Made by a program: the position numbers and the translations under genes. Shown here one piece after another: positions 22,925 to 58,414 of a stretch of 64,000 nucleotides of DNA. The notes beneath the pieces were generated by a model. It was not told the DNA's origin, did not search any database, and saw nothing but the letters and a program-made list of their open reading frames with translations. Origin of the DNA: Clostridiales bacterium (GTDB taxonomy: Bacteria > Bacillota > Clostridia > Oscillospirales > Oscillospiraceae); assembly GCA_029268065.1 (NCBI GenBank), contig JAJUHC010000006.1, positions 28,766 through 92,765 of the forward strand, given 5' to 3'. Numbering within the stretch: position 1 is the first letter of the stretch; every line of letters begins with the position of its first letter.

Positions 22925-23095
22925 CGAAAGATAATTGGCTTCCTCCGTCCCGGTTCCGGCACAGTATCCTGACTAATGCGTCATAGCCCGGGCCGCCTTC
23001 CCGGTTTTATCCAGTGGCATAATGGCCGTAGCTCGGCAAATACAGTTGCGAGACAGCGCGGGATTTTCACCCGCTTCCTGTAACCGAATCCGCAA
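22925..23095 (-). promoter_or_regulatory. Cobalamin riboswitch upstream of cbiM
   Basis: Minus strand GGTTACAGGAAGCGGGTGAAAATCCCGCGCTGTCTCGCAACTGTA...GCCACTGG...GGGAAGGCGGCCCGGGCTATGACGCATTAGTCAGGATAC. Canonical B12 riboswitch core. Confidence 0.93.
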
Positions 23096-23124
23096 ATTAT
23101 AATGTTTTGCAAAACATCATAATT
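23095..23124. promoter_or_regulatory. 30-bp inverted repeat (putative operator) at the riboswitch promoter
   Basis: AATTATAATGTTTTGCAAAACATCATAATT; the inner 16 bp ATGTTTTGCAAAACAT (23102-23117) is a perfect palindrome. Minus strand TATAAT overlaps the arm. Confidence 0.5.
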
Positions 23125-41687: not shown

Positions 41688-41852
41688 CATTAACTTTCTT
41701 TACATATTTTTGGACTGCGGACTGGGAATTCCCCGAATCATACGGGGAATTTCGTTTTTCTTATGGAAAAGCCGCATTGTTTGTGGGATAATATCCGCAG
41801 GGCGGATACCGTCCCGCAGAAGCAGTTTTTTCTTGTGAACGGAGTGATTTTT

Positions 41853-48220: not shown

Positions 48221-48237
48221 AAAAAATATGCGTCAAA

Positions 48238-48322
48238 AACTACCTCCGTTGGCATTACCCAAATCAGGTTCTAGGGTCGAAGCGTTCGCTTCCTCTCAGC
48301 CGGTCAAAGCTCCCCTGTTTAT
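48238..48322 (-). promoter_or_regulatory. TPP riboswitch
   Basis: Minus strand ACAGGGGAGC...CGGCTGAGAGGAAGCG...GACCCTAGAACCTGATTTGGGTAATGCCAACGGAGGTAG (THI-box core). Confidence 0.95.
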
Positions 48323-48343
48323 AAATTTTACTTTTTGATGTTA

Positions 48344-48979: not shown

Positions 48980-49035
48980 ACGGCATCGGCCTTTCCTGCT
49001 GTCAAGATGCTTTCATACCTTGAACTTATGAGATT

Positions 49036-49135
49036 TATGGTGTAATGCCGTGCTTTGCGGTTCCGGCCCGCAGTGCCGGAAGCAAAACGGCTTTGCTTTG
49101 AGCATCACCCTTTTTTGAGAGGGCGCGCGGGAGGC
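49036..49135 (-). repeat. Structured intergenic repeat, diverged copy of the 57.45-kb elements
   Basis: Minus strand CCCGCGCGCCCTCTCAAAAAAGGGTGATGCTCAAAGCAAAGCCGTTTTGCTTCCGGCACTGCGGGCCGGAACCGCAAAGCACGGCATTACACC aligns by eye with 57453-57545. Confidence 0.75.
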
Positions 49136-49328
49136 ATAACAACCGATTCCCGGTTATTATATCACACTTCAATGCTGAAATGCGGCAAAAGTATTTTTTT
49201 TGTGACATCAATTTTATCATAAAAAAACATACTTTTGCCATTATTGTCTGTCATATTGTAGGCACAGGGGAAAGGAACCGGAAACGGCCTCGCCCCGAAA
49301 AACAAAATATTGAAAAGGAGAGTTCAAT

Positions 49329-57315: not shown

Positions 57316-57452
57316 ATGCCGTCGGCTATTTTTCACTTGGCACCGCGGCGGTCCGGCGAAAAATAGCTGATGCGCTGTGAAACGATAATATAAACAGACA
57401 AATTTCACATCCGCTACAAATTCTTGTGCTAATATGGCGTAGGGTATAATAT

Positions 57453-57575
57453 CCGCGCATGCGCCCTCTCCGAGGGCGCGCGCTCAAAACAAAGCCGTTT
57501 TGCTCCCGGGCCCTTCGGGCCGGAACCGCAAAACACGGCAACATACCATGAATTTGGAAAATTCATGGTATAATA
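57453..57575 (+). repeat. Structured tandem repeat, unit 1
   Basis: CCGCGCATGCGCCCTCTCCGAGGGCGCGCGCTCAAAACAAAGCCGTTTTGCTCCCGGGCCCTTCGGGCCGGAACCGCAAAACACGGCAACATACCATGAATTTGGAAAATTCATGGTAT... Confidence 0.92.
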
Positions 57576-57593
57576 TCCGCAGAGCGGATATTA
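57571..57593. repeat. TAATATCCGC-AGA-GCGGATATTA hairpin linking the repeat units
   Basis: Perfect 10-bp arms; related TATCCGC-AGG-GCGGATA near 41790-41811. Confidence 0.8.
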
Positions 57594-57596
57594 TAC

Positions 57597-57719
57597 CCGC
57601 GCATGCGCCCTCTCCGAGGGCGCGCGCTCAAAACAAAGCCGTTTTGCTCCCGCCCCTTCAGGACGAAACCGCAAAACACGGCAACATACCATGAATTTAT
57701 CAAATTCATGGTATATTAT
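57597..57719 (+). repeat. Structured tandem repeat, unit 2
   Basis: First ~59 nt identical to unit 1, inner loop diverged (CCGCCCCTTCAGGACGAAACC), then GCAAAACACGGCAACATACCATGAATTTATCAAATTCATGGTAT. Confidence 0.92.
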
Positions 57720-57751: not shown

Positions 57752-58414
57752 TTGAAACTGCTTGTTGTCGAGGATGATCGCGATACAAGCGACGGAGTCT
57801 GTGAATACTTCAGGGAAATGGGATACGAGGCATCTCCCGCCTATGACGGCATGGAGGCTCTCGAGCTTGCCGGGCGCAGTTCCTTTGACCTTATTCTGCT
57901 CGACGTTATGCTGCCGCGGCTGACCGGGCTTGCGGTTTTGCACGAGCTTCGCAAAACCAGCGACGTGCCGGTCATCATGCTCACCGCGATCGGTGACGAA
58001 TATACGCAAATCGCAAGCTTCGACGGACTGGCGGACGATTATGTCACAAAGCCATTTTCCGTAGTGCTGCTCGGAAAGCGCGTAGAGGCGCTGCTTCGGC
58101 GGGGGAAACCCAGGGACGGCCAATACATATGGCGGTACAGGGATATCGCGGTCAATTTTACAGGCTACACTGCCGAGGGTCCGGACGGCCCCGTTGAAGT
58201 CACTCCCATGGAGGTGAAGCTCCTGCGGCTTCTGGTGGAGCATAGAGGCAAGGTGATGACACGCGGGCGCATCTTGGACGAATTATGGGGGGATGACCGG
58301 CCAGTCTTTGACAGGACGGTGGATTCCCACATAAAGAACCTCCGCAAAAAGCTGAACTTGGACTGCATTGTGACTGTAACCGGCGTGGGGTACAAGCTGG
58401 AGGATGAGCGATGA
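57752..58414 (+). CDS. OmpR-family response regulator (TTG start)
   Basis: MKLLVVEDDRDTSDGVCEYFREMGYEAS...DLILLDVMLPRLTGL; DRTVDSHIKNLRKKL. Confidence 0.92.
   Translation: MKLLVVEDDRDTSDGVCEYFREMGYEASPAYDGMEALELAGRSSFDLILLDVMLPRLTGLAVLHELRKTSDVPVIMLTAIGDEYTQIASFDGLADDYVTKPFSVVLLGKRVEALLRRGKPRDGQYIWRYRDIAVNFTGYTAEGPDGPVEVTPMEVKLLRLLVEHRGKVMTRGRILDELWGDDRPVFDRTVDSHIKNLRKKLNLDCIVTVTGVGYKLEDER

Follow-up and report, generated by a model that had tools for sequence, protein, structure and literature searches.

A hairpin-built repeat of Clostridia that sits on promoter -10 boxes and is probably a non-autonomous mobile element

Directly upstream of a two-component system operon in a Clostridiales bacterium lie two direct repeat units of ~144 bp, each built of near-perfect hairpins, and the question that they raise is what kind of element they represent and why they are placed where they are. 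The window analyzed here is a 64,000-nucleotide stretch of contig JAJUHC010000006.1; the genome to which it belongs (G000) comprises 2.44 Mb in 50 contigs and is 89% complete, and the genomes with which it was compared are mostly MAGs and fragmented. A preliminary description of the locus had offered three options, namely a regulatory RNA, a MITE-like element, or a protein-binding array. Our analysis points to a probable answer that is closest to the second of these: the two units form an array of a dispersed, non-autonomous, hairpin-built mobile element of Clostridia that is aimed at -10 boxes.

The two units span positions 57442-57717 of the window, so that the repeat starts at 57442 and not at 57453, where it had been placed before. 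The earlier account of two near-identical tandem units of ~144 bp is borne out, with a start-to-start spacing of 144 and 96% identity over the first half of the units and a spacing of 143 and 87% identity over the second half. The array has a predicted folding energy of -133.8 kcal/mol, compared with -78.2 kcal/mol for shuffled sequences (z -12.4), and the patterns of hairpins A and B are expected 0 times by chance. There are four hairpin types altogether: A, B, and C within each unit, all of them named in the preliminary description and found at matching positions in both units, and a joint hairpin D between the units. In unit 1, hairpin A (GCGCCCTC-TCC-GAGGGCGC) occupies positions 57461-57479, hairpin B (GCCGTTTTGC..GCAAAACACGGC) positions 57494-57539, and hairpin C (ATACCATGAATTT-GGA-AAATTCATGGTAT) positions 57543-57571. 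The corresponding features of unit 2, likewise on the forward strand, are hairpin A (GCGCCCTC-TCC-GAGGGCGC) at 57605-57623, hairpin B (GCCGTTTTGC..GCAAAACACGGC, with an imperfect inner stem) at 57638-57682, and hairpin C (ATACCATGAATTT-ATC-AAATTCATGGTAT) at 57686-57714; the reported change of the hairpin C loop from GGA to ATC with retention of both arms is thus correct. Across units, hairpin A takes the form GCGCCCTC-TCN-GAGGGCGC. Hairpin B of unit 1 is composed of a 7-bp stem, an internal loop TC/AACC, an inner stem, and a 3' bulge AC before GGC, an architecture that is found again in many genera.

The AGA hairpin said to join the units is present, and its arms are longer than had been given: hairpin D (GGTATAATATCCGC-AGA-GCGGATATTATACC, 57567-57597, forward strand) has 14-bp arms. 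Unit 2 begins with the right arm of this hairpin. The left arm represents an extended -10 box (TGGTATAAT, TATAAT at 57569-57574) and overlaps the right arm of hairpin C (ATGGTAT), such that one segment has two alternative pairings. The left arm of the first D also carries TATAAT (segment GGGTATAATATCCGC, 57442-57456, forward strand; TATAAT at 57445-57450). Unit 1 is without the 20 nt AGAGCGGATATTATACCCGC, which in other copies sit between two CCGC direct repeats, and the deletion between these repeats therefore leaves the first D, intact in other copies, without its 3' arm. The array ends with TGGTATATT (57709-57717, forward strand), the right end of hairpin C of unit 2. The next feature is a host gene outside the element, encoding an OmpR-type response regulator (57752-58414, forward strand), for which the TTG start proposed earlier is at 57752; Pfam agrees with the predicted operon, which consists of this response regulator, a HisKA-HATPase kinase, an ABC ATPase, and an M1-peptidase-domain protein.

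Copies of the element are dispersed. A BLAST count, the check proposed in the preliminary description, identifies ~10 loci with near-complete units plus fragments in the own genome, matches in 4 of 5 genomes of the genus, and matches in 31 of the 201 genomes sampled from the family. The pattern of hairpin D occurs in 37 of these 201 genomes, with up to 18 instances per genome, and a reversed control of the pattern gave none. The window itself contains a second, decayed copy on the reverse strand (49015-49175; BLAST match G000:C6:77780-77868, 82%), composed of D, a remnant of A, B, and a remnant of C, and a third, fragmentary copy on the forward strand (GGGATAATATCCGC-AGG-GCGGAT, 41785-41812; BLAST match G000:C6:70549-70573) that sits 5' of another response-regulator gene. 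A scan for GGTATAATAKCCGCNNNGCGGMTATTATACC across 84,980 species returned 55 stretches, and every named host is from Clostridia (Oscillospiraceae, some Lachnospiraceae, Papillibacter, Bittarella, Intestinibacillus, and Bacilliculturomica, a placement that we take from general knowledge); cultured hosts exist in Papillibacter cinnamivorans, Bittarella, Intestinibacillus, and Bacilliculturomica. Collections of phages, plasmids, and viral contigs contain no match, and an origin from these sources was rejected. Rfam yields nothing above the gathering threshold and, inside the window element, no match even at E up to 5, so that the described Rfam family that would have spoken against the preliminary description was not found; weak-scoring matches were rejected as chance. 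A literature search limited to open-licence papers found no description of such a family. The element is short, dispersed, and devoid of a conserved open reading frame, as MITEs are, and no autonomous copy was seen.

Most pairs of copies within G000 are about 90–98% alike. Unit 1 of the window array shares 98% identity with a unit at cdaA, and unit 2 shares 97% with one on contig C36, compared with 94% between units 1 and 2. Because each is closer to a unit elsewhere than to its neighbor, local tandem duplication was rejected as their origin, and the identities suggest separate arrival, or conversion, as the probable origin of the two. At cdaA, the orthologous unit in the sister species G003 is only 62% identical, which, set against the likeness of the G000 copies, would indicate recent amplification or homogenization. 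Two G000 loci (L012 and L002; C12:2832-2988 and C32:1-157) have ~157 bp of flank plus D in common and are then followed by different genes. An integrative-element attachment site was considered here and rejected, as the neighboring ORFs are SLH-, NYN-, and lipoprotein-like with no integrase; a repeat-driven assembly overlap, or a rearrangement through the element, is more likely.

What the preliminary description lacks is the main point: the joint hairpin includes the -10 box of a promoter, and promoters are exactly where the element is placed. It follows a host TATAAT -10 hexamer immediately on the 3' side, in one orientation, and reads into the 5' UTR of the downstream gene. The -10 box (ggTATAAT) has its complement in the first segment of the element, GCGGMTATTATACC, and host -10 and element together make up hairpin D; the joint "TAATATCCGC-AGA-GCGGATATTA" is a -10 box paired with the complementary arm of the element. 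We counted 97 array starts, defined as those without an upstream C module and oriented by the purine-rich loop, and scored as -35-like any hexamer with at least 4 of 6 matches to a TTGACA-like sequence at 16–18 bp. Such hexamers precede 49 of the 97 starts compared with 62 of 582 shifted controls (p 4.6e-18), and their distribution peaks sharply where the spacer to TATAAT is 17 bp. They are present in 27 of 50 starts in a subset for which GG before TATAAT was no selection criterion (40 of the 50 have the TG of an extended -10), and in only 3 of 104 cases on the other side of the D palindrome, which serves as an internal control. In the same 50, the base before TATAAT and the base opposite it in the element are G-C in 32, C-G in 3, T-A in 1, and A-T in 1. 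The next downstream ORF is on the same strand in 66 cases versus 25, at a median of 181 nt to its start; these figures come from a crude ORF call in which shadow ORFs are included. The window array itself has a weak -35 upstream (TTGTGC, spacer 15), and nothing was registered there in the -35 scoring; given this, the first -10 may be inactive. The last TGGTATATT of the array is a putative box, and an RNA that began from it would have only a short leader ahead of the TTG at 57752.

Element-free relatives separate host from element. They retain TATAAT at four loci, which we name ECF-sigma, parA, cdaA, and flavoprotein from reading the translations, and the -10 box is thus host sequence and the complementary arm part of the element; together with the -35 peak 17 bp upstream, this identifies the joint as a -10 box plus an element arm. 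The ECF-sigma site is a clean one. Its empty form in G003 reads ...TATGGTATAAT|CAAGC... (in longer view ...CACTAAATATATGGTATAAT|CAAGCATCACTC...), and TATGGTATAAT is retained in G004, while the filled form in G000 reads ...TGTGGTATAAT, then the element, then CAAGC... (in longer view ...CACTAAGTGTGTGGTATAAT-ACCTGCAGAGCGGATAATATACCC...CACGGCGTAGT-CAAGCGTCACTC...), with ~112 bp of element after TATAAT and host sequence intact on both sides. The junctions are TATAAT|ACCTGC.. on the left and ..GGCGTAGT|CAAG on the right, and the alignments of the empty and filled sites overlap by 4 bp, including the TATAAT end. The right end of the element is probably truncated here; the 3' boundary is well fixed in some copies only, others (ECF-sigma, parA) being truncated. 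The same ECF-sigma promoter in G001 (L281/L284, G001:C128) bears a different palindrome, GCTATAATATTTGA..TCAAATATTATAGC, that is also built on the -10 box.

At parA, relatives that include G002 of the same genus have the arrangement parS (GTTTCACGTGAAAC)-TTGAAA-N16/17-TATAAT, and the element begins at that TATAAT in G000 and G003; in a second genus (G035), an element is found at the same -10 of the parA promoter. At cdaA, TTGYCA-17-TATAAT is kept in most genera and the element begins at TATAAT in four species (G000, G001, G002, and G003), a conserved position that also fits an old, retained regulatory element. The base before TATAAT in these four is G, A, A, and T, respectively, and the base opposite in the right arm of D is C, T, T, and A. 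Such matching of the base after ATTATA to that before TATAAT is what guided insertion predicts, although later co-change could also produce it. The fourth empty site, at a flavoprotein gene after a tRNA, emerges from comparison of G000 with G003. At an aldehyde dehydrogenase locus (L006 versus L220), the intergenic regions could not be aligned, and the window locus offers no empty site because the relatives of its response regulator in the genus reach only ~43%.

The ends of the units account for the arrays. In many units the terminal sequence is ATGGTATAAT, by which the target is formed anew, and many arrays close with TGGTATAAT, beyond which the sequence is unrelated; an exact TATAAT is present at 16 of 31 recognizable array ends. 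A unit that inserts after TATAAT and itself ends in TATAAT provides its own next target, and direct head-to-tail arrays without spacers follow. Full units have TATAAT at either end, which may represent a 6-bp duplication or, alternatively, the end of the element. Insertion aimed at the -10 box would account in one stroke for the tandem stacking, the orientation, and the placement in the 5' UTR.

The preliminary description had further suggested that stems are conserved and loops variable, and had proposed a covariation check; the stems of hairpin B covary strongly. The plan D-(A)-B-C is kept across genera as sequences drift, and hairpin B keeps the internal loop TC/AACC between stems of ~7 bp and 4–7 bp, the sequences of which change freely. 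Among 22 B sequences, 85.8% of cells are paired (65.8 ± 1.8 in shuffles), 67 cells carry changes on both sides (24.9 ± 3.4 in shuffles), and the covariation score is 0.537 (0.187 ± 0.022 in shuffles) and is lost when the structure is slid along the alignment; as the set was chosen partly by pairing, the score leans towards structure, whereas the diversity of the stems is direct.

Covariation of this strength, a sense position in the 5' UTR, conserved TC/AACC loops and tetraloops, and retention at cdaA and parA in sister species would all suit a portable cis-regulatory leader RNA, the transcribed hairpins of which serve as binding sites for a protein or ligand, or govern decay, and so form a regulon. 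The character of the pairing argues otherwise. Departures from Watson-Crick pairing in hairpin D are symmetric, with 21 A-C and 19 G-T among 1656 cells, and those in hairpin B number 17 A-C versus 5 G-T. On the mRNA strand, G-U pairs make up only 1 of 96 predicted pairs in the window element, as against 14 of 75 in the T-box of the same window; the three riboswitches that Rfam recognizes in the window (a T-box leader at 638-887, forward; a cobalamin riboswitch at 22941-23103, reverse; and a TPP riboswitch at 48224-48326, reverse, which lies ~0.7 kb from the decayed copy) have 14/75 for the T-box and 6/46 and 1/21 between the other two. The strand opposite to the mRNA folds more stably in 27 of 37 non-redundant units (p 1.5e-4), with 75 G-U among 1232 pairs compared with 43 among 1199 on the mRNA strand. 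Covariation is thus present without G-U tolerance on the transcribed strand and with a bias to the other strand, so that the constraint looks to be one on DNA; this argues for recognition at the DNA level, possibly on the bottom strand, and disfavors selection on an mRNA leader. Moreover, the genes that follow the element have no relation to one another and vary from species to species, the first D straddles the start site, which leaves its 5' arm outside such an RNA, and Rfam has no counterpart. The regulatory-RNA option is weakened accordingly, and we regard it as unlikely.

The MITE-like option survives in the loose sense of dispersed copies with natural empty sites, but the terminal inverted repeats of a classical MITE are not found at the junctions of the clean empty site. 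A MITE mobilized by a DDE transposase would have GCGGMTATTATACC..GGTATAATAKCCGC as inverted repeats and 3-bp target duplications as loop triplets, a reading encouraged by the 14–15 bp inverted arms that flank each unit and by triplets that are often equal within an array (AGA/AGA, AAG/AAG, and GAG/GAG). The host at empty sites has TATAAT and no KCCGC arm, however, so one supposed inverted repeat would be host DNA; the triplets around one single unit are unequal (AAA versus AGA); and the clean ECF-sigma site shows no host duplication beyond the alignment overlap described above. Empty sites and unequal triplets led us to reject the model of inverted repeats plus 3-bp duplication, and a classical MITE is very improbable. 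Palindromes might instead have grown at -10 boxes by template switching during replication, spread by slippage, and been homogenized by gene conversion, with no mobile element involved. Perfect stems with free loops, arms that sometimes run up to 24 bp into unique host sequence, the different palindrome at the ECF-sigma promoter of G001, and the deletion between CCGC repeats in unit 1 are all in keeping with this; yet a multi-hairpin sequence of 112–144 bp that is 92–98% identical at unrelated loci cannot arise locally, and the B module with its TC/AACC loop recurs across genera, leaving little room for such an origin. An array of promoter sites bound by a DNA-binding regulator would explain palindromes that overlap the -10 and the start site, but other genera have different hairpin sequences in the same architecture, the target genes are incoherent, and the stems are variable; we give this explanation hardly any credence.

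How a mobile element of this kind would reach promoters can be only tentatively outlined. The element would be non-autonomous and copied in trans by a putative enzyme, for which the conserved hairpins may be recognition signals that act at the level of DNA, or of the strand that opposes the mRNA. The arm ATTATACC probably selects the target by pairing with single-stranded TATAAT, as in an open promoter. The original -35/-10 would then transcribe the element as a leader, and the extended -10 of the unit itself (TGGTATAAT) could restart transcription beside the gene, so that insertions might be tolerated as near-neutral for the host promoter. The full proposal, that base pairing between the conserved ATTATACC arm and the single-stranded -10 of an open promoter guides insertion 3' of TATAAT, and that the end of the element rebuilds the extended -10 such that the gene remains expressed and a further copy finds a landing site, is one to which we attach a rather low probability. 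No mobilizing enzyme was found in the genomes examined. A Y1 transposase (PF01797) is absent from the own genome (89% complete), and Y1 matches occur in 7 of the 16 genomes with at least 3 D hairpins compared with 82 of 201 overall, with no association with copy number; a Y1/HUH transposase was therefore rejected as the driver.

Several known systems invite comparison. IS200/IS605 elements insert as single strands, in a target-specific manner, 3' of a fixed short sequence and without target duplication, and have subterminal hairpins and a segment complementary to the target. The present element has a fixed short target, insertion 3' of it, and a fixed orientation, and by analogy the lack of a clear host duplication, the subterminal hairpins, and the internal target-complementary segment would also be IS200/IS605-like; the differences are that the target is TATAAT at promoters, that the geometry of the pairing arm is another, and that TnpA was not found. 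BOX elements of Streptococcus pneumoniae (boxA-boxB-boxC) are similarly modular and structured, with a variable number of tandem units upstream of genes, but their sequence and host are unrelated, and we know of no insertion of BOX elements at -10 boxes. 'Putative mobile promoters' resemble the present element in placing related promoter-region sequence upstream of non-homologous genes; here, in contrast, the -35 and -10 are those of the host and only the downstream part moves. A search limited to open-licence papers found none on such promoters. REP, REPIN, and BIME sequences with RAYT (Y1) transposases are likewise hairpin-built, intergenic, and mobilized in trans in arrays. REP/REPINs are defined in PMC3733652 by a GTAG or CGTC tag beside the palindrome, and neither the units inspected nor the alignment of B showed such a tag beside the hairpins. 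The present units are, in addition, direct rather than inverted, lie on promoters, and belong to a genome without a Y1 transposase. The ~155 bp bcr1 of the Bacillus cereus group appears in PMC3733652 as one of the bacterial MITEs and in PMC2267715 as a family of stem-loops, with Okstad 2004 cited for its mobile-element character. It is of similar size and is likewise short, non-coding, structured, intergenic, and dispersed with the character of a mobile element, but its host group and sequence are different, and the sections of these papers that treat it describe no -10 targeting, no -10-pairing arm, and no tandem stacking. Each of these systems thus shares some features with the element and fails others. 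Small non-autonomous elements are common in bacteria, and a family with the -10 box as its insertion point would be a new target preference. The element reshapes the promoter and leader of the gene where it lands, and core-gene promoters of common gut Clostridia (parA, cdaA, ECF-sigma, and two-component systems) would have been rebuilt by mobile DNA; it also offers a direct test of transcription bubbles as landing sites.

Related structures accompany the element in some genomes. Arrays of G001 (L031, L041, L046, and L047) mix the GCGCATGCGCC module with a second module, TGTCGCGACCGCC-TC-GCCCC..GGGGC-AACC-GGCGGCGATGACA, and the modules are connected by the same kind of -10 palindrome. A second repeat family, with ends AGACTGTCAAAAAA..TTTTTTGACAGTCT, occurs at L220 (G003:C35), L042/L033 (G003:C13), L082, and L018/L008 (G000:C20), and is sometimes inserted beside or between the D and C hairpins of the present element. 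Finally, isolated D hairpins (L094 5287-5317, L130 3130-3160, L098, and L083) have arms that reach 19–24 bp into otherwise unique sequence, in some cases followed by a T run, and may be bidirectional terminators or remnants.
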